Shown one piece after another: positions 29,257 through 45,925 of a stretch of DNA of 45,925 nt (position 1 is the stretch's first letter; the number at the start of each line of letters is the position of its first letter). The notes beneath the pieces are model-generated. The model searched no databases, was not told where the DNA came from, and saw nothing but the letters and a program-made list of their open reading frames with translations. Source of the stretch: Betaproteobacteria bacterium (lineage in GTDB: Bacteria; Pseudomonadota; Gammaproteobacteria; Burkholderiales; JACQAP01); contig JANXVW010000033.1 in assembly GCA_025351455.1 (NCBI GenBank), positions 1-45,925 on the forward strand, written 5' to 3'. The translations under genes and the position numbers were made by a program.

Positions 29257-29332
29257 GGGTGCTTAGCTCAGTTGGTAGAGCGTCGCCCTTACAAGGCGAA
29301 TGTCGGGGGTTCGAGCCCCTCAGCACCCACCA
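29257..29332 (+). tRNA. tRNA-Val (anticodon TAC)
   Basis: 76-nt cloverleaf gggtgct...cgcccTTACAAggcg...ggggg TTCGAGC cccct cagcaccc acca. Confidence 0.97.
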
Positions 29333-34685: not shown

Positions 34686-35666
34686 ATGATTGCTTTTCTC
34701 GTCCGGCGGATTCTTTATGCGATTCCGATCCTGATCGGCGTCAACGTGCTGACCTTCCTGCTGTTCTTCATCGTCAACTCGCCTGACGACATGGCGCGCA
34801 TGCAACTCGGCCAGAAGCGCGTCAGCGACGAGGCGGTGGTGAAATGGAAGCAGGAGCGGGGTTACGACAAGCCCAGCTTTTTCGACGCGCAAGCCAGCGG
34901 CATCCGCAAGATCACCAACACGATTTTTTTCGAGAAATCGGTGCCTCTGTTCTGGTTCGACTTCGGACGCGCCGAAGCGGACGGGCGCGACATTGCCCAT
35001 GAAATCCGCAGCCGGATGTGGCCGAGTCTGGCGATTGCGCTGCCGGTCTTCATCGTCGGCATGCTGTCCTATATCACCTTCGCCCTGCTGATGGCGTTCT
35101 TCCGCGCCACTTACATTGACATTGCCGGCATCCTGCTATGTATTTTTGCCATGTCGGTGTCGGGCCTGTTCTACATCATCGGCGGGCAATATGTAATCAG
35201 CAAGCTGTGGAATCTGGTACCGATCTCGGGCTACGTAGGAGGATTGAACGCCTGGAAGTTCCTGGTGCTTCCCGTGGTCATCGGCATTGTCGGTGGAGTG
35301 GGGGCCAGCGCGCGCTGGTACCGGACCATTTTTATCGAGGAAATCAATCGCGACTACGTGCGTACCGCGCGGGCGAAAGGACTGTCGGAATGGCGCGTGC
35401 TGTTCCGCCACGTGCTGCATAACGCGATGATTCCCATTCTGACGGGTGCGGTCGTGGCAATTCCCTTGCTGTTTCTCGGCAGTTTGATTACCGAATCATT
35501 CTTTTCGATACCGGGACTGGGCAGCTATACCATCGATGCAATCAGCCAGCAGGATTTCTCCGTGGTGCGGGCCATGGTTTTCCTCGGCTCGGTGCTGTAC
35601 ATAATCGGCCTGATCCTGACCGACATTTCCTACACGGTGGCGGATCCTCGCATAAGGCTGCAATGA
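34686..35666 (+). CDS. ABC transporter permease (DppB/YejB-like)
   Basis: MIAFLVRRILYAIPILIGVNVLTFLLFFIV; EINRDYVRTARAKGLSEWRVLFRHVLHNAMIPILT. Confidence 0.93.
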   Translation: MIAFLVRRILYAIPILIGVNVLTFLLFFIVNSPDDMARMQLGQKRVSDEAVVKWKQERGYDKPSFFDAQASGIRKITNTIFFEKSVPLFWFDFGRAEADGRDIAHEIRSRMWPSLAIALPVFIVGMLSYITFALLMAFFRATYIDIAGILLCIFAMSVSGLFYIIGGQYVISKLWNLVPISGYVGGLNAWKFLVLPVVIGIVGGVGASARWYRTIFIEEINRDYVRTARAKGLSEWRVLFRHVLHNAMIPILTGAVVAIPLLFLGSLITESFFSIPGLGSYTIDAISQQDFSVVRAMVFLGSVLYIIGLILTDISYTVADPRIRLQ

Positions 35667-37132
35667 ATCTTCCGTTCAAACCGGTCATCCTGACTACCGA
35701 CGCACTGATTTTCGTGCTGTTTGCCGTGGTCGCCATCTCGGCCTGGTACATCAGCCGGCATCAGCATTTGCTTGCACCCTGGAAGAAGGTGGCGCGCAGC
35801 CGCAGCGGCATGATCGCCGCCGTGATCCTGTTGGTCTTTGTTACCGTCGGCCTGCTGGACTCGCTGCATTTCCGGCCCGTCCTGCCCGGTGATGCCGCCG
35901 TGGGTAAGGCGAATTACGCGGTCGACGTGATGTCCGTGTTCGATGTGATTGCCGCTCCGCTCAAACGCAAGCAGGAAAAGACCTATTCCGCGCCGCTGTC
36001 CGCTTATCTGTTCGCCAAGGAGACCGTGGAACTGCCGGACGGCAGCGAGGCGCGCGTGTTTCCGCGGCTGACATATGGCGGCGCACATTTGAAGGACCCG
36101 GCGACCGAGCAGACTCCCGACATCGTCAAGCGCATAGTCGCCGGCGTTGCGATCGCGGCGTTGGCGTGGAATATCCTGCTGCTCTGCGTGACATTCTGGC
36201 TGTCTCATCGGCATGGGCACAGCGTGCGGGATACCTGGTCGGCCATCTGGAAAGGACATACGGAAATGCCGTGGCGCGAGATGCTCGTCACCAATGGAGT
36301 GGTGTTTCTCGTGTTCGTGCCGATGATGGTCTTGTCCGCCGGATATCATGTGCTGGGCACGGACAAGGTCGGCCAGGATGTGTTTTACCTGACACTCAAG
36401 AGCATCCGCACCGGTCTGGTCATCGGGACGCTCACGACGCTGGTCATGCTGCCATTCGCACTCCTGCTCGGCATCCTCGCGGGTTATCTGCGCGGCTGGG
36501 TGGACGATATCATCCAGTATCTGTACACCACACTCAATTCGATTCCCGGCGTGCTGTTGATTGCCGCCTCCGTGCTGATCTTGCAAGGTGTCATCGACCG
36601 CCATCAGGACTGGTTCCAGACGGCAAGCGAACGGGCGGATGCGCGATTGTTCCTGTTGTGCATGATCCTCGGCGTGACCAGCTGGACCGGCTTGTGCCGC
36701 CTGCTGCGCGGCGAGTCGCTCAAGCTGCGCGAACTGGATTACATCCAGGCGGCGCGGGCATTCGGGGTGTCCGATTACAGGATCATCACTCGTCACATCC
36801 TGCCGAACGTGATGCACATCGTGCTGATCGCCATCGTTATGGATTTCAGCGGCCTGATCCTGGCGGAGGCGGTGCTGTCCTACGTCGGCGTCGGCGTGGA
36901 TCCGACCATGAACAGTTTCGGCACCATGATCAATTCGGCGCGCATGGAGATGGCGCGCGATCCCATGGTGTGGTGGTCGCTTGCGTCGGCCTTTGCCTTC
37001 ATGCTGCTGCTGGTCCTCTCGGCGAACCTTTTCGCCGATGCCGTGCGTGATGCTTTTGATCCGCGCATCCGCGGCCGCCTGGCTTCGCCGGGGTTCCTTT
37101 CCAAATACCTGCCGGCGACGCCCGGTCGCTGA
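35663..37132 (+). CDS. ABC transporter permease (DppC/YejE-like) with enlarged N-terminal region
   Basis: LRELDYIQAARAFGVSDYRIITRHILPNVMHIVLIAIVMDFSGLILAEAVLSYVGVGVDPTMNSFGTMI EAA-loop permease; 489 aa. Confidence 0.92.
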   Translation: MNLPFKPVILTTDALIFVLFAVVAISAWYISRHQHLLAPWKKVARSRSGMIAAVILLVFVTVGLLDSLHFRPVLPGDAAVGKANYAVDVMSVFDVIAAPLKRKQEKTYSAPLSAYLFAKETVELPDGSEARVFPRLTYGGAHLKDPATEQTPDIVKRIVAGVAIAALAWNILLLCVTFWLSHRHGHSVRDTWSAIWKGHTEMPWREMLVTNGVVFLVFVPMMVLSAGYHVLGTDKVGQDVFYLTLKSIRTGLVIGTLTTLVMLPFALLLGILAGYLRGWVDDIIQYLYTTLNSIPGVLLIAASVLILQGVIDRHQDWFQTASERADARLFLLCMILGVTSWTGLCRLLRGESLKLRELDYIQAARAFGVSDYRIITRHILPNVMHIVLIAIVMDFSGLILAEAVLSYVGVGVDPTMNSFGTMINSARMEMARDPMVWWSLASAFAFMLLLVLSANLFADAVRDAFDPRIRGRLASPGFLSKYLPATPGR

Positions 37133-39006
37133 TGTCCATGACCCCTGCCATCTTGCAAGTCGAGAATCTGCGCACGTGGCTGTCGGGCAGCGAGGGCATC
37201 GTGCATGCGGTGGACGGCGTGTCGTTCTCGGTCGCCCGTGGCGAAACCTTTGCGCTGCTTGGCGAATCCGGTTGCGGCAAATCCATGACGGCGCTGTCGA
37301 TTGCCCGACTCTTGCCGGATGCGGGCCGTATCTCGGCGGGCACGGTGCGACTGGACGGCCAGGACCTTCTGCAGCTTCCGGAAGCGGCAATGCGCGACGT
37401 GCGCGGCAGCCGCATCGGCATGATCTTCCAGGAGCCAGGCACCAGCCTGAATCCGGTGATGACCGTCGGAGCGCAGATCGGTGAAGTATTGCTGCAGCAC
37501 ACGGCGCTGCGCGGCAGCGCGGCCGATGCCCGGGTGCTGGAACTGCTCGACGCAGTGGGATTGCCCGATCCGAAAAGCCGAATACTCGAATACCCGTTCC
37601 AGCTCTCCGGCGGCATGAAGCAACGCGTCATGATCGCGATAGCGCTGGCATGCGAACCCCGCTTGCTGATCGCGGACGAGCCGACTACTGCGCTCGACGT
37701 GACGATCCAGGCCCAGGTACTCGACCTGCTGCGCAACCTGCAGAAAAAGATGGGCATGTCGATCCTGCTGATCACCCACGACCTGGGCGTGGTCTCGGAA
37801 ATGGCGCATCACGTCGCCGTCATGTATGCGGGCGAGATCGTAGAAACCGCAAGGCACGATGAATTCTTCCGCAATCCGGCGCACCCGTACTCGCGAAAGT
37901 TGTTTGCATCTTTACCCGACCGGCAGACCAGGGACCGCTCGCTGGCGGTGATTCGCGGCCGCGTTCCTTCCCTGGCCAGCGAATTCCGTGGATGCCGCTT
38001 CGCGGATCGTTGCGATTTCGCATGGGATCTTTGCAAAAACACGAGCCCGGACTGGAGTGCCGTGGAAAGCGGCCACGGCGTGCGCTGCCACCTGTTCAGC
38101 GAAAAAAAGGAAGTTCCGGATGCAGCGACGACCGCGTTCGCTTCCGGGGCGGGATTGTCCGCGGCCTGCGGGCCGATGCATCCGGAGACCGGCATGCCGT
38201 TGCTGGCGGTTGACGACCTCAAGGTTTACTTCCCCATACGCAAGGGCATCTTCAAGCATGTTGTCGGCCATGTGAAGGCCGTCGACGGAGTGTCGCTCTC
38301 CCTGCGGGCGGGGCGGACGCTGGCACTGGTTGGCGAATCGGGGTCCGGCAAGACCACGGTCGGCAAGGGAATCGTGCAACTGCTGCCGCTCGCCGGTGGC
38401 AGTGTGAGTCTCGGCGGCGTGGATCTCGCAACGTTGTCCGGAAGCGACTTGCGCGGACGGCGCCGTGATTTCCAGATCATTTTCCAGGACCCGTACAGCT
38501 CGCTTAATCCGCGCATGCGCGTGCTCGACATCATCGAGGAGGGCATGATCGCCCTCGGCGTGGGCGGCGACAGACGTGCTCGCGCGACAAGGGTCGAAGA
38601 AATAATGGTGCAGGTCGGCCTGGGCGCGGAGATGAAATACCGCTATCCGCATGAATTTTCCGGCGGCCAGCGTCAGCGCATTGCGATCGCGCGTGCGCTC
38701 GCAGTCGAGCCCAAATTGATCGTCTGCGATGAACCGACCAGCGCGCTCGACGTGTCTGTGCAGGCGCAGATACTGAACCTGTTGCGCGATCTGCAGAGCC
38801 GGCTTTGCATCGCCTACCTCTTCATCACGCATAACATGTCGGTCGTCGAATATCTGGCGGACGAAGTGGCCGTCATGTATCTCGGAAAAATCGTCGAGCA
38901 GGGCAGCGCCGACGAGGTTCTGCACAACCCGCAGCATGCCTATACGAAGGCGTTGCTGTCAGCCGTACCGAGAGTGGAAAAGGAAGCGCCGATCGCTTCC
39001 ATATGA
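37132..39006 (+). CDS. duplicated ABC transporter ATP-binding protein (YejF/DppD-DppF fusion-like)
   Basis: Two ATPase cassettes: LLGESGCGKSMTALSIARLL...LSGGMKQRVMIAIALACEPRLLIADEPTTALDV and LVGESGSGKTTVGKGI...FSGGQRQRIAIARALAVEPKLIVCDEPTSALDV. Confidence 0.95.
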   Translation: MSMTPAILQVENLRTWLSGSEGIVHAVDGVSFSVARGETFALLGESGCGKSMTALSIARLLPDAGRISAGTVRLDGQDLLQLPEAAMRDVRGSRIGMIFQEPGTSLNPVMTVGAQIGEVLLQHTALRGSAADARVLELLDAVGLPDPKSRILEYPFQLSGGMKQRVMIAIALACEPRLLIADEPTTALDVTIQAQVLDLLRNLQKKMGMSILLITHDLGVVSEMAHHVAVMYAGEIVETARHDEFFRNPAHPYSRKLFASLPDRQTRDRSLAVIRGRVPSLASEFRGCRFADRCDFAWDLCKNTSPDWSAVESGHGVRCHLFSEKKEVPDAATTAFASGAGLSAACGPMHPETGMPLLAVDDLKVYFPIRKGIFKHVVGHVKAVDGVSLSLRAGRTLALVGESGSGKTTVGKGIVQLLPLAGGSVSLGGVDLATLSGSDLRGRRRDFQIIFQDPYSSLNPRMRVLDIIEEGMIALGVGGDRRARATRVEEIMVQVGLGAEMKYRYPHEFSGGQRQRIAIARALAVEPKLIVCDEPTSALDVSVQAQILNLLRDLQSRLCIAYLFITHNMSVVEYLADEVAVMYLGKIVEQGSADEVLHNPQHAYTKALLSAVPRVEKEAPIASI

Positions 39007-39022
39007 GGTTGATGCAGTTGGG

Positions 39023-40429
39023 TCAGCGGCGGGCGATACGCGGATTGCTGTAGATCGTCACGCGCTGGCCTATGCGCAGGTTGTTGCCCGACAGGTGGTT
39101 CCATTCTTTCAGGGCGGCCACCGTGACGCGGTGTTTCAATGCGATGAGGTAGAGGCTGTCGCCGTTCTTTACGCGATAGACTACGCGGCTACCGTATAAA
39201 TCCTCGGGTGCCTGAAATTCCGGACTGTTCCAGGTTTCATCCAGGTTCGAAGCATTGGCGTCTTCATTCATCGGCACCAGCAACGACCGGCCGGGTCGAA
39301 CCGCGACATGATGGTTGATCCCGTTGATCTCCCGCAAGCGTGCTGGCGTGATGCCGAATTTCGCGGCGACCGAATCCGGATTCTCGTTCTTCTTCAGCGT
39401 ATAGGTCTGCCACGACACCAGGGGCTGGTCATAGTCCTTCAGGTTGGCTGAGAAAATACCCGCCTTTTCGACCGGCAGCAGGAGGGTGCGCGATCCATTC
39501 GACATGATGACCGGACGCGTATGGCCGGGATTGAGCGAGCGGAAGTCATCGACCGACATTTCCGCCAGTCGCGCGGCGACCTGCATGTCGATGTGCTCCG
39601 GGGTCGATACGGCCGTGAAATACGGCTGGTTGGGGATGTCTTCGAGCGGGAAGCTCAACAGCGCTGGTTTCATGATGATGTTCTTCACCGCCTGCAGCTT
39701 GGGCAGGTAGTTGCGCGTCTCGCGCGGCATCCGCAGGTTAAGGTAGCTGGTTGGCTTGCGCTTCGCCCGGTTGCTTGCGATGGCGCGACGCACGCCGTTC
39801 TCGCCCCAGTTGTACGCCGCCAGAGCCAACTGCCAGTCATCGAATTCCGCATGCAATTTTTCCAGGTAGTCCAGCGCGGCGCCGGTGGCGGTGAGTACAT
39901 CGCGGCGTCCGTCGTACCACCAGTTCTGCTGCAGCCCGTAGCGTTTTCCGGTGGAAGGCATGAACTGCCATATCCCGACGGCGCGGGCGCGCGAATAGGC
40001 TATAGGGTTGTAGGCGCTCTCGATCATCGGCAGCAGCGCCACTTCCATCGGCATGTGGCGCTTGTCGATTTCCTCGACGATGTAATACAGATAAAGGCGG
40101 CTGCGCTCGATCATGCGCTGGAAGTAATCGGGGTGATTCAGGAACCAGGCCTCGTGGCGCGCAACGAGTTGGCTGTCGAGCATGGGCAGGGCGAAGCCGT
40201 CGCGCACGCGTTTCCACAGGCTCTCCGGTGCAGGCGTAAGCGGCGTGACAGTAAGGGGCGTTTCAGGTTGCGCTTCCACCGGCGCATCCAGTTTCAACTC
40301 ATTGCGTGCGGGTGCCGGTGGCGACGTCGGGTCCGTGGGCGTCTGGACGGCGACAGGTACGTCAGCCTGGAGTGGGGAGGTTGCTGCAAAGATGCAGACA
40401 CCGGCGAGAATCGCAAGTAATTTCTTCAT
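39023..40429 (-). CDS. mltD: membrane-bound lytic murein transglycosylase D-like (SLT + LysM)
   Basis: MPMEVALLPMIESAYNPIAYSRARAVGIWQFMPSTGKRYGLQQNWWYDGRRDVLTATGAALDYLEKLH; C-terminal YRVKNGDSLYLIALKHRVTVAALKEWNHLSGNNLRIGQRVTIY LysM. Confidence 0.93.
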   Translation of the reverse strand: MKKLLAILAGVCIFAATSPLQADVPVAVQTPTDPTSPPAPARNELKLDAPVEAQPETPLTVTPLTPAPESLWKRVRDGFALPMLDSQLVARHEAWFLNHPDYFQRMIERSRLYLYYIVEEIDKRHMPMEVALLPMIESAYNPIAYSRARAVGIWQFMPSTGKRYGLQQNWWYDGRRDVLTATGAALDYLEKLHAEFDDWQLALAAYNWGENGVRRAIASNRAKRKPTSYLNLRMPRETRNYLPKLQAVKNIIMKPALLSFPLEDIPNQPYFTAVSTPEHIDMQVAARLAEMSVDDFRSLNPGHTRPVIMSNGSRTLLLPVEKAGIFSANLKDYDQPLVSWQTYTLKKNENPDSVAAKFGITPARLREINGINHHVAVRPGRSLLVPMNEDANASNLDETWNSPEFQAPEDLYGSRVVYRVKNGDSLYLIALKHRVTVAALKEWNHLSGNNLRIGQRVTIYSNPRIARR

Positions 40430-40483
40430 TTACCAATGCAAGATATTGATATTTATTGGTATCTTAGCAGAGGATTCAGCCTA

Positions 40484-40501
40484 GTCAAGGTAAACCTTGA
40501 C
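40484..40501. promoter_or_regulatory. Short perfect inverted repeat in gloB-mltD gap (operator or weak hairpin)
   Basis: GTCAAGGT-aa-ACCTTGAC; no T-tract. Confidence 0.35.
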
Positions 40502-40541
40502 CCAAGCGGGCAACGCGCATCTGACCCCACGGAAACGAGGG

Positions 40542-41312
40542 CTAAAAGCTGTCCTTCCATTGGCGCAAGGTCGTGAACACGTCGACCGAACCGGATAGCG
40601 CACGCCCCGCGCGACGGCTGGCCGACGCGGCCACGGCAGGGTCCCCTCCACGCATGAAGGGATTGGCCGCCAGTTCCAATGCGATGGTCGAGGGCAGAGA
40701 AGGATGGCCGGCCGCGAGTGCGGCCCGGGCCGAGGCTTCGCGCCGGTCTAAGGCAGGGTTGTCCGGATCCGCGGCGCGGGCAAAACGCAGATTCGAAAGT
40801 GTGTATTCGTGGGCGCAATACACCAGCGTGTCGCCGGGGAGTGCTGCAAATTTCGCGAGCGACGAGTGCATTTGCGCCGCCGTGCCTTCGAACAATCGCC
40901 CGCAACCGCAGGAAAACAGCGTGTCGCCGCAGAACAGCACGCCTTCGCCGTAGTAGGCGATGTGCCCCGCAGTGTGGCCTGGGACATCTAGCACGCCCAG
41001 AGTGAGGCCCACACCGGGGACTTCAATGGTGTCTCCCTCCTTGAGCGCTCTGGTGATGCCGGGAATTTTCTCGCGCGCCGGGCCGAATACCGGTACGTTA
41101 TACTTCGCGAGCAGCCTGGTGTTGCCGCCGACGTGATCGCCATGGTGGTGGGTGGTCAGGATCGCCGCGAGCTGCAGTTTTTCGCTGGACAGATATTCGA
41201 GGACCGGCTCGGCGTCGCCCGGGTCCACGACAACGGCGACGGCGCCCGTGCGCACGCACCAGATATAGTTGTCCTGGAATGCGCGGATGGGAACGATGGT
41301 GATGGTATTCAT
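40542..41312 (-). CDS. gloB: hydroxyacylglutathione hydrolase (glyoxalase II)
   Basis: TTHHHGDHVGGNTRLL metallo-beta-lactamase motif; GHTAGHIAYYGEGVLFCGDTLFSCGCGRLFEG; YCAHEYTLSNLRFA. Confidence 0.96.
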   Translation of the reverse strand: MNTITIVPIRAFQDNYIWCVRTGAVAVVVDPGDAEPVLEYLSSEKLQLAAILTTHHHGDHVGGNTRLLAKYNVPVFGPAREKIPGITRALKEGDTIEVPGVGLTLGVLDVPGHTAGHIAYYGEGVLFCGDTLFSCGCGRLFEGTAAQMHSSLAKFAALPGDTLVYCAHEYTLSNLRFARAADPDNPALDRREASARAALAAGHPSLPSTIALELAANPFMRGGDPAVAASASRRAGRALSGSVDVFTTLRQWKDSF

Positions 41313-41340
41313 GCGGGTATCTTTTATTTTATAAAACTGA

Positions 41341-42114
41341 ATGTCAATCAACGCCGCGCCCGTCAGTCTCTCCGAATGGTTTTCCACGCCGCTGGGCGCA
41401 CGCCTCCTTGACATCGAACTGAACTACTTCGACCGCGAACTCGCTGATGTGTTCGGATTCAACGCAATCCAGCTCGGCCTTCCGGAATACCCATACTTGC
41501 GTGCCAATCGTATTACGTTTCGCTGCGTGACGGGCTGCGACGGCCCGGTCGGCGTGCGTTCCGATCCGTGTGCATTGCCGCTGCAGACCGCGTCGATCGA
41601 TCTTGTCGTATTGCCGCATACCCTGGAATTCAGCAGCAATCCACACCAGGTGCTGCGCGAGGTTTCGCGGGTCCTGATGCCGGAGGGGCACGTGGTGCTG
41701 TCGGGATTCAATCCGTGGAGCCTGTGGGGCGCGCGCCGCCTCACCGCGCGGCGCGAAGGTGCCTATCCATGGTGCGGTCAGTTCATTAATCTGCCGCGGA
41801 TCAAGGACTGGATGGCATTGCTCGGATTTGAACTCGCCGGCGGACGCATGTGCAGCTACGCGCCGCCATTGGCCAGCGAAAAATGGTCGCGTCGCTGGAG
41901 CTTCATGGAATCGGCGGGGGATCGCTGGTGGCCGTTTGCCGGCGGCGTTTACTACCTGCACGGCATCAAACGGGTCCAGGGGATGCGCCTGATCACGCCG
42001 CAGTGGAAGGCAGTGCAGGTGAAGAAGAAAGCGCTGGCCGCGGTGCCGCACAAAACCAACGGGCGCGACGACGCGATGGCGGCGCGGACCAATCATGCCG
42101 GAGATCCGCAGTGA
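41341..42114 (+). CDS. SAM-dependent methyltransferase, divergent from gloB
   Basis: [55 protein letters not shown]. Confidence 0.85.
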
Positions 42115-42569
42115 ACGAAGTGGTCAATATCTATACCGATGGCGCTTGCAAGGGCAATCCCGGACCGGGCGGCTGGGGGGTCTGGATGAAATGGGCCGAC
42201 CACGAAAAGGAGTTCTGCGGCGGCGAAGCGGAAACGACGAACAACCGCATGGAAATGATGGCGGTGATCGAAGCCCTGGCTTCGCTCAAGCGCAGTTGCA
42301 CGGTGCGCCTGCATACCGATTCGAAGTACGTGCACGACGGCATCTCGACCTGGATACACAATTGGAAACGACGGGGCTGGCTTACCGCCGATAAAAAGCC
42401 CGTGAAGAATGTCGATCTGTGGAAACGATTGGATGAGCTGGTCCGAGGCCATGAAGTCGAGTGGGTCTGGGTCAAGGGACACGCCGGCAATCCCGGCAAC
42501 GAGAAAGCCGATGAGCTCGCGAACCTCGGCGTGGAGGAGGCGCTTCGCGCAGGGGCGAAGAAGCAGTGA
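42111..42569 (+). CDS. rnhA: ribonuclease HI
   Basis: [71 protein letters not shown] start overlapping the upstream stop. Confidence 0.97.
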
Positions 42570-42741
42570 TTGGTAATGAGTGAAGCGGCAGTGATTGGTA
42601 ATTGGTGATTGGTGATTAGTAAAAGGTACCGACAAAAATGCAAAAAAGTTTTATTCTTTAATCGCCAATCGCCAATCGCCAATCGCCAATCGCCAATCGC
42701 CAATCGCCAATCGCCAATCGCCAATCACCAATCACTGCTTC
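42560..42741. repeat. Heptamer-repeat element bounded by perfect 15-bp inverted repeats between rnhA and dnaQ
   Basis: GAAGCAGTGATTGGT (42560-42574) and ACCAATCACTGCTTC (42727-42741); nine perfect tandem ATCGCCA units at 42661-42723 plus one ATCACCA variant. Confidence 0.95.
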
Positions 42742-43449
42742 ATGCGCCAGATCTTCCTCGACACGGAAACGACCGGCCTCGATCCCGCACTGGGCCATCG
42801 CATAATCGAAATCGCAGCGGTGGAAATCGTGAACCGCCGCTTCTCCGACCGGCACTTCCACCAGTACGTGAACCCGGGACGTGACATCGACGCCGGCGCG
42901 CTGGAGGTGCACGGCATCACCAGTGAATTCCTCGCCGACAAACCGAAGTTTCGCGACGTGGCGAAAGACATGCTCGAATTCATCGAAGGCGCCGAGTTGA
43001 TCATCCACAACGCACCGTTCGACGTCGCGTTCCTTAATCACGAACTCGCATTGTTGGAACTGCAGGCACTCAATGTTTACTGCCCGAATGTAACTGACAC
43101 GCTGAAAATGGCGAAAGGCCTGCATCCGGGAAAGCGCAATTCGCTCGATGCATTGTGCGAACGCTACCAGATCGACAATTCCGCGCGTGCGCTGCACGGT
43201 GCGCTGCTGGATGCGCGTCTGCTGGCGGAAGTTTATCTGTCCATGACGCGAGGACAGGACAGTCTCCTGATGGACATCATCGAACCTTCTTCCGACGCCC
43301 CGGATGCGACTTTCGCGGCGGCCAGTTTGGATCTGATTGTGCAACGCGCCACGCCAGACGAGCTGCGGGATCATGAGCGTTATCTGGAGGATATAAACAA
43401 GGGCGCCAAAGTAGCCTGCTTGTGGACGGCACTGGAACAGGCCGATTGA
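42742..43449 (+). CDS. dnaQ: DNA polymerase III epsilon subunit (3'-5' proofreading exonuclease)
   Basis: MRQIFLDTETTGLDPALGHRIIEIAAVEIVNRRFSDRHFHQYVNPGRDIDAGALEVHGIT; IIHNAPFDVAFLNHEL; HGALLDARLLAEVYLSMTRGQ. Confidence 0.97.
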   Translation: MRQIFLDTETTGLDPALGHRIIEIAAVEIVNRRFSDRHFHQYVNPGRDIDAGALEVHGITSEFLADKPKFRDVAKDMLEFIEGAELIIHNAPFDVAFLNHELALLELQALNVYCPNVTDTLKMAKGLHPGKRNSLDALCERYQIDNSARALHGALLDARLLAEVYLSMTRGQDSLLMDIIEPSSDAPDATFAAASLDLIVQRATPDELRDHERYLEDINKGAKVACLWTALEQAD

Positions 43450-43519
43450 CAGGTAAAAATCAACGCCTCAATTGATTTTCGTCCCGATCCGCGTGGTCCA
43501 AGGTCGAAAATCGAGGGGC

Positions 43520-44287
43520 GGCTCTCGCCGGCAATGTGATTCTTCAACCGATAACCAGCTCCGGTTCCCTGGTGGATGGAATTAATCTCCGTATTACCAC
43601 GCCGGGAACATTGCTGATCGATGGCACTAATATAGTCCCGCCAAATTGCTGGCAAGCGGGACGGTCAGTATCAGCGCAGATGCGGTCTCCGTAAATGTCG
43701 GCAGATTTTCCGGGGTCGATCCGGCGTTCCTCAATCTGACCGCCACGGGAGAACTCGTTATCCAAGGCGGGTCCACGTCCTCGGGGGTTGCCACGGTTGC
43801 GGCAAACACCGTGAATATCACTGCGTCGAACTTCGTCATCCAGGGCGGCAGCAGTACCGGCAGTTATGCGGGAATTATTGGCGGAACCGGTAGTAGTAGG
43901 GGGACAGTCGTAAACAACATCACTTTGGCCCCCGGTGCAGGAGTGGATGCCGATGCGTTAATCGGTACGACAGGAGGCAGCCTCCTGGTTTTCGCATCAA
44001 GTTGCATCGGTTGTACCGTGCTTGCTTCCGATCCGCTGGCCAATCAGGCGATCGACGGTGGATTGTTTGGTGCGCCGGTTAATCTTGTGCTGCCGGGCTT
44101 TGTGCAGCCGAGCGGCCTGCCCGCCATTGAAATCGATACCAGCATCATCTATGCAGCGACGCTGGCGGAATCCGGCGGCGCAGCGAACACGTCCTATTCC
44201 GATGAGGACGAGGGCGAGAAGCAAGGTGTGAAGGAGGAGGGCAAGAATGATGGCAAACCGAAACGCAGCCTGCCGATGTGCATTTAG
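43520..44287 (+). pseudogene. C-terminal remnant of a TPS/filamentous-hemagglutinin-like exoprotein
   Basis: Repetitive beta-rich passenger-like sequence in two frames: AGNVILQPITSSGSLVDGINLRITTPGTLLIDGTNIVPPN, then LLASGTVSISADAVSVNVG...LVIQGGSTSSGVATVAANTVNITASNFVIQGGSS; frame shift near 43643; no N-terminal TPS domain present. Confidence 0.62.
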
Positions 44288-44553
44288 CGCGCTGCTGATC
44301 GCGGCGCTGCTCATCGGCCTCGACCGCCTGCGCCGCGTCGGCCGGTGAGGTCACGCGCGTCAGCGGCGCTCTGCTGGCCCGCAAAGCCGATGGTTCGAGC
44401 ACCCGTATCGAGTCATTTGCCTACGACCAGACCAATCCGGGAAAGGATTCCGCGTTGTTCAGCTTGCTCAAGGGCGGGCTGCGCACGATCACGGGCGCCA
44501 TCGGCAAACGCAAATCCGACGCCTATCAATTGCGCACCACGGTGGCCATTTAA
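44250..44553 (+). pseudogene. FecR-domain-like protein, frameshifted and truncated
   Basis: MANRNAACRCAFSALLIAALLIG signal-like start, then frame change to AGEVTRVSGALLARKADGSSTRIESFAYDQTNPGKDSALFSLLKGGLRTITGAIGKRKSDAYQLRTTVAI*. Confidence 0.6.
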
Positions 44554-44770
44554 AATCCTGTCGGTCGGCTAATTCGGTTTCGTGCGGAATAACTCTGTAG
44601 CGATGATCTTCGCCCCACCCGACCAGGGTGTGACCAACAATATGCCGGGTTTCAACAGCGGGCCTGCGTCAGGCAGGAACGCCGAGTGTGCCGTGCAATA
44701 GGATTTGTAATCCTGTCCTGACACGCCACGTGAGGTTCCAGTGGGCGCCGAGGGTGTCCGGCGCGGCGCG

Positions 44771-45472
44771 TTACCGCGGTGGCGGAGCCAATTCAAAGGT
44801 GACATTGCAGGAAACCGCAACGCGCGGCCGCGTTCCGCGGTAAGCATTCACGTAATGGAGCACCCATCCCGGAAAAACCAGCAGCCTTCCTGTACTTGGC
44901 CGGGCCGTGAAGGTCTTGCCTAGCAGGTCGAGCCCAGGAATCGGTAGGCCCCCGTGTCGCGGATCCACGAGGGCGAGCAATCCCGAATCGGGATGGATCG
45001 CCTCGTCTGCGTCCCCCGCATCCGGGTAGTACACCGTCGACCAATGCGCGTTCGCATGATCGTGCGGGATCGTATAGTCGCCGTTGCGCATCACCATTGC
45101 CCACGCGTGCACGCCCACGCGCATCGCCGGCAGCCCCCGATCACTTTCCTTCGCGAGACGGTCCATCGTCTCGCGTACCCGCATCACGATGTACTGGATG
45201 AGCGCACGAAAACTCGCGTCCGGACGCAGCGCAAGGTCGGTTTGCGAATGCCAGCCGCCGACGTTGCTGCGGCTGATGGAAGGGACGGAAACGGATTCGG
45301 CTACGAGACGCGCAGTAACGTCGCGGTTGACTGCATCCATGTCGGACGAAGACTCATACATGGAAACCGGAGTGGCAAAAAGCGGGACATGGCTTGCGAC
45401 CGATGCGCCGGTGAGCGCGGTCCCGCCTGAGGGAGAAAAACCACGCTGACCTACAGCCGTTGCAAGATTCAT
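44771..45472 (-). CDS. putative 2OG-Fe(II) oxygenase family protein
   Basis: SNVGGWHSQTDLALRPDASFRALIQYIVMRV; YTIPHDHANAHWSTVYYPDAGDADEAIHPDSGLLALVDPRHG; TGRLLVFPGWVLHYVNAYRGTRPRVAVSCNVTF. Confidence 0.75.
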   Translation of the reverse strand: MNLATAVGQRGFSPSGGTALTGASVASHVPLFATPVSMYESSSDMDAVNRDVTARLVAESVSVPSISRSNVGGWHSQTDLALRPDASFRALIQYIVMRVRETMDRLAKESDRGLPAMRVGVHAWAMVMRNGDYTIPHDHANAHWSTVYYPDAGDADEAIHPDSGLLALVDPRHGGLPIPGLDLLGKTFTARPSTGRLLVFPGWVLHYVNAYRGTRPRVAVSCNVTFELAPPPR

Positions 45473-45678
45473 CCGCGTGAGCTTGCATTTTCGAGGGCGA
45501 AAAAATCTTGAACGATCTTGCGCACTTGCCGGATGACACGCGCGGAAAAAATCATTGCGCGGATTGGCTGTTGTCGGATTGCGACGAGGAAATATGTATT
45601 ACAGGATGAAATATTTCCGCGAGCGAATCAGCATTTGCAATTCGCGACGGGATCGGGCGGGAACTGATTGATCAGTGC

Positions 45679-45706
45679 TGGTGGGTGGTACTGGGATCGA
45701 ACCAGT
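45679..45706 (-). repeat. Partial tRNA 3' end (T-arm + acceptor strand + CCA), candidate att site
   Basis: Reverse strand ACTGG-TTCGATC-CCAGT-ACCACCC-A-CCA; perfect 5-bp T-stem, no D- or anticodon arm upstream. Confidence 0.82.
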
Positions 45707-45753
45707 GCTACCCACCCGCAAACCCAGTACTGGCGCGGTTCTCCAGAGGGTGC

Positions 45754-45782
45754 TGTGTCATAGAATGGCGTTGTGTCATAGA
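45754..45782. repeat. Direct repeat, possible integrase arm-type or accessory sites
   Basis: TGTGTCATAGA at 45754-45764 and 45772-45782, 18 bp apart. Confidence 0.5.
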
Positions 45783-45790
45783 TTCGGGGT

Positions 45791-45925
45791 TTAGACCCTG
45801 TCCGGACGGCGCCGGTAGGCCCGTTCCGTCATGCGTGAATCGACGTGGGCGAGCAGCTTGCGGGCGTGTTCCAGGCTCTCGGCGTCGCTGCCGACCTTGG
45901 CCCGCAGATCATGTTCGGTGAAGCG
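45791..45925 (-). CDS. C-terminus of phage-type tyrosine recombinase/integrase (cut by window edge)
   Basis: RFTEHDLRAKVGSDAESLEHARKLLAHVDSRMTERAYRRRPDRV*: HDLR box, LLAHVDSRMTERAY with catalytic H and Y positions. Confidence 0.85.
   Translation of the reverse strand, partial: RFTEHDLRAKVGSDAESLEHARKLLAHVDSRMTERAYRRRPDRV

Follow-up and report, generated by a model that had tools for sequence, protein, structure and literature searches.

The integrase module of Xanthomonas phage PBR31 (MT119766.1), together with its IMG/VR relatives, is the closest described counterpart of the DNA junction studied here. In this module, a DUF4224-type gene precedes a tyrosine integrase gene, a tRNA 3' end follows it on the same strand, and 10-bp direct repeats with a 19-bp period lie nearby. 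For the genes that may accompany our junction, the nearest description is that of Bell et al. (2020; PMC7641849), who reported (PIN)-GNAT-EVE/ASCH/AAA_17 operons. In their description, the form with a PIN domain neighbours defence systems, type I restriction-modification among them, and the form without it occurs in prophages; according to that paper, no module of these systems had been experimentally characterised. In addition, Escherichia phage PhiR47_2 (PV340567.1) encodes GevT and GevA, annotated as toxin and antitoxin. Literature searches for GevT and for the PADLOC entry PDC-M11 (see below) returned nothing relevant.

The window, by which we mean the whole contig analysed here (G000:C330, 45,925 nt), carries a same-family integrase and a similar arrangement at its right end. 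With high confidence, we read this end as the attR of a phage-like element that entered the 3' end of tRNA-Val(CAC) by ordinary site-specific integration using a PBR31-family integrase, with a second contig, C228, as an inferred part of the element.

The attachment-site core and the integrase tail

A 28-nt block on the minus strand (ACTGGTTCGATCCCAGTACCACCCACCA; 45679..45706) comprises the T-arm, 3' acceptor strand, and CCA of tRNA-Val(CAC) and matches the 3' end found in relatives exactly, being identical to that of many betaproteobacteria. It is present as a single copy in the window and in the genome (0 occurrences in 100 shuffles), and we take it to be the attachment-site core, of attR type. 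The preliminary description had recognised a minus-strand tRNA fragment running from the T-stem to CCA, as the exact 28-mer confirms, but had considered it to lack a 5' half. In fact, an 11-nt sequence, GGGTGGGTAGC (45707..45717, minus strand), directly abuts the T-arm and, compared with the intact tRNAs of relatives, matches nucleotides 1 to 11 of tRNA-Val(CAC) at 10 of 11 positions. Within one mismatch, the only other such 11-mer in the whole window is the start of a real tRNA-Val(TAC) at 29257.

Fused in this way, the 11 nt of the 5' end and the 28 nt of the 3' end make up a 39-nt unit equivalent to the tRNA without nucleotides 12 to 47, and the same unit, including the 5'-end copy, is conserved in a genome of the same genus (G003). 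From its sequence, the unit is predicted to form a 39-nt acceptor/T-arm minihelix; the folding energy around it is not exceptional (z, -1.36). In one scenario, which we regard as improbable, the element carries its own minihelix just behind the integrase, its att site also acts on the integrase transcript as a tRNA-like RNA processing signal, and a PIN-GNAT-EVE/ASCH/AAA_17 module is spread by the element via a tRNA-Val hotspot. On a viral contig with a different integrase, GGGTGGGTAG is located upstream of the same tRNA 3' end (L152:689-784).

The frame at 45791..45925 (minus strand) encodes the C-terminal 44 codons and the stop (TAA, 45791-45793) of a PBR31-family tyrosine integrase, the remainder of the gene being cut off by the contig end at 45925, beyond which nothing is readable within the window. 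The 44 residues (RFTEHDLRAKV...LLAHVDSRMTERAYRRRPDRV) include HDLR, LLAH, and the likely catalytic Tyr in RAYRR. Residues 2 to 44 match phage integrases, with 63% identity to the PBR31 integrase over 43 residues, which confirms the earlier assignment of an integrase C terminus carrying HDLR. Likewise, the 84 bp measured between the integrase stop codon and the T-arm core agrees with the distance of about 85 bp given previously. Between the integrase gene and the core are two 11-bp direct repeats, TCTATGACACA, spaced 18 bp apart (copy 1, 45772..45782; copy 2, 45754..45764; both minus strand), which we infer to be arm-type integrase binding sites; in relatives, such repeats have a 19-bp period.

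Using an alignment of three integrases, we scanned viral contigs and obtained 100 relatives, 80 of which were kept. Downstream of the integrase gene, many of these bear a pair of direct repeats with a period of 19 bp and then a tRNA 3' end. The 19-bp period holds for most relatives in which repeats were found, with a range of 18 to 20 bp in the conserved layout of integrase gene, repeats, and tRNA 3' end; the 18-bp period at 45754-45782 is shared by the window and G003, as opposed to the prevailing 19 bp in the rest of the family. Where a tRNA end is recognisable in the relatives, it mostly faces the integrase gene; in the window, G003, PBR31, and three viral contigs, it reads with that gene. 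On a Micavibrio contig (L093:1167-1454), the tail of a related integrase contains an in-frame stop and faces a complete valine tRNA with the same 3' end as the window. A viral contig with the doubled repeat of the window (L239) was dismissed as a chance match, as it has neither a tRNA nor any integrase of the PBR31 family. No match to the window junction was found in plasmid DNA. Apart from our own genome, one of 399 in the order has a full-length copy of the integrase with 60% identity and another a C-terminal piece with 58%; at this similarity, the family is uncommon within the order.

Contig C228 and its probable link to the window

The PBR31 integrase query finds two places in the genome, the tail in the window and an N-terminal piece at G000:C228:3-152 (minus strand). 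It found none of the PF00589 matches elsewhere in the genome, so these other proteins are not close members of the PBR31 family. C228, which comprises 3139 bases and starts inside its N-terminal integrase fragment, is in our judgement probably the adjoining part of the window's element, reached across a contig gap of about 0.8 kb. The genome contains a single N-terminal fragment of the family and a single C-terminal one; each lies at the end of a contig and is directed towards the gap. The pairing of DUF4224 and integrase genes in relatives (see below) also speaks for the link.

It is conceivable that the junction is real but that C228 stems from a second, unrelated element or from a contaminant, in which case the cargo beside the window would be unknown. 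C228 is short and comes from a bin with 3.4% contamination, and its tetranucleotide distance falls slightly outside the window's own range. Moreover, the N- and C-terminal pieces have different best relatives, and a half-gene rank-correlation test across 42 family members gave a rho of -0.43 for the N-terminal piece of C228 versus the C-terminal piece of the window, which would fit separate origins. True same-gene pairs ranged from -0.22 to 0.64 in this test, and the value for C228 and the window is also lower than that of every different-gene pair; in this test the two pieces do not resemble the two ends of a single unrecombined gene. The test is therefore unfavourable to the link without favouring the alternative; in addition, phage integrases are mosaic, which would break such a correlation. 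Against separate origins speak the single pair of fragments facing the gap, the scarcity of the family at this similarity in the order, and the fact that the nearest N-terminal relatives include integrases with ATGACACA or CTATGACCCA repeats resembling those of the window. On balance, we consider a separate origin of C228 possible but unlikely.

The insertion locus in related genomes

To the left of the junction, the window contains host backbone, including a dnaQ-like exonuclease gene (42742..43449, plus strand), which marks the tRNA-Val(CAC)/gltX locus in relatives, and a 2OG-Fe(II) oxygenase gene (PF13759; 44771..45472, minus strand) with orthologs in G003 and G002. At the L075 locus, gltX, an intact tRNA-Val(CAC), and dnaQ-rnhA-MT-gloB-mltD occur together and the site is unoccupied. 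The site is likewise unoccupied in G002 and other betaproteobacteria, where a complete tRNA-Val(CAC) separates gltX from the side bearing dnaQ and the 2OG-oxygenase gene. In G002, tRNA-Val(CAC)-gltX is located about 10 kb from mltD-gloB-MT-rnhA-dnaQ-2OG, with a transposase-like gene and transport genes (identities read from the ORFs) and no recognised integrase in the interval from the oxygenase gene to the tRNA. The corresponding contig of G003 (G003:C202) is collinear with window positions 34968-45537 and has the same att site and integrase tail, also ending inside the integrase gene. Between the window and G003, the att/integrase region is 93% identical, and most of the backbone is about 78 to 82% identical. 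Considered together, the G003 junction and the unoccupied loci of L075 and G002 identify the window junction as the integrase-side end of an insertion at tRNA-Val(CAC).

The preliminary description had proposed insertion by a tyrosine integrase at a tRNA 3' end, and these orthologous loci support that view. It had also placed the intact tRNA to the right of the window. The orientation logic behind this holds, since with the core on the integrase strand it is the integrase-side junction that keeps the truncated copy; the intact tRNA itself was not found in our own assembly, and only the relatives back its predicted position. A search of this assembly likewise failed to find the 5' half of tRNA-Val(CAC) and gltX, and the far junction is therefore unseen.

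Could the window instead hold a decayed remnant, most of the element having been deleted to leave an integrase tail and an att copy with nothing to the right? Only 44 integrase codons are visible before the contig stops, and neither G002 nor G001 has an integrase at the tRNA-Val(CAC) locus, as this would allow. However, the tail has an open frame that matches intact integrases over its whole length, the repeats are undamaged, and the same arrangement is kept in G003 with an identity above that of the backbone, so that we judge a remnant very improbable. Even less probable, in our view, is the idea that the 39-nt unit is a tRNA pseudogene that arose through an internal deletion and has nothing to do with the integrase beside it. 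This could account for its 11 nt of 5' end and 28 nt of 3' end, but the unit sits behind the integrase gene and repeats, where other family members have tRNA 3' ends, and relatives have the tRNA-Val(CAC) locus at the orthologous place in the chromosome.

In the site-specific integration that we favour, the target would have been the tRNA-Val(CAC) gene at its 3' end, a gene that in relatives is flanked by gltX on one side and the dnaQ/2OG-oxygenase genes on the other. The integrase would have occupied the pair of 11-bp arm-type repeats together with the T-arm core, and element and chromosome would then have recombined. The crossover presumably made the tRNA at the far (right) junction whole again and left the truncated copy in the window. 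This reading draws on the observed identity of the core, the integrase tail, the repeats, and the unoccupied and occupied orthologous loci; on this reading, the crossover would have fallen within the core, and the element may still be mobile. G003 has further copies of the tRNA-Val 3' end on short contigs, which suggests a hotspot. One of these copies is located beside a TIR-domain gene (L200:990-2282), suggesting that other elements with defence-like cargo use the same tRNA.

The genes of C228 and their described counterparts

The preliminary description had pointed to the cargo as a promising place to look for a system. An operon resembling PDC-M11 was indeed found on C228, and its place in the element depends on the link across the contig gap. 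Following the integrase fragment, C228 encodes a DUF4224 protein, presumed to be an excisionase, an AAA_17 ATPase, an ASCH protein, and a 492-residue PIN-GNAT-EVE protein. A DUF4224 gene also precedes the integrase gene in PBR31, L233, and G206. The PADLOC profiles PDC-M11A and PDC-M11B match C228 with E values of 1.9e-137 and 4.9e-46, respectively; among Pfam domains, GNAT (7.5e-5) passes its cut-off, and EVE and PIN_3 are detected only below theirs. By these profile matches, the set is PADLOC's PDC-M11, until now catalogued solely as a candidate for anti-virus defence. If C228 belongs to the element, its cargo would probably act as a (PIN)-GNAT-EVE/ASCH module of toxin-antitoxin-like or defensive type, protecting either the host or the element itself.

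G217, G337, and G216 share this order of the three genes. In G337, the set resides inside a type I restriction-modification operon, between hsdS and hsdM and on the same strand as hsdR (L192:6761-14954), and in G216 it is near hsdR. In G217, the PIN-GNAT-EVE/ASCH/ATPase set is followed in tandem by a PIN-less GNAT-EVE and ASCH pair (L190:6398-10271). No relative of the C228 PIN-GNAT-EVE protein was found in the viral contigs scanned.

In conclusion, our analysis fixes the insertion site of a mobile element, tRNA-Val(CAC) beside gltX, in a little-known betaproteobacterial genus. It also reveals a layout that recurs among members of a widespread family of phage integrases, and it suggests that a candidate defence module has a mobile carrier. 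The junction is an ordinary one, and the proposed cargo is plausible and moderately interesting.

Relative to PBR31, the window has a different core, a shorter T-arm-to-CCA block of tRNA-Val(CAC) where the phage has a tRNA-Ser-like one, and a repeat period of 18 bp instead of 19 bp. PBR31 is also a complete phage genome, whereas no phage structural genes were found on C228. GevT and GevA resemble the C228 genes in that a GNAT-EVE-type protein is followed by a small partner gene, but GevT has no PIN domain and its aligned identity to the C228 protein is 28%. The operons of Bell et al. (PMC7641849), corresponding to PDC-M11, encode the same three proteins as C228; their PIN-bearing form lies beside defence systems, however, whereas that of C228 directly follows an integrase/DUF4224 pair. 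Prophage psiM100 has an annotated full-length PIN-bearing relative (27%), and a prophage setting for the PIN-bearing form is thus not unprecedented.
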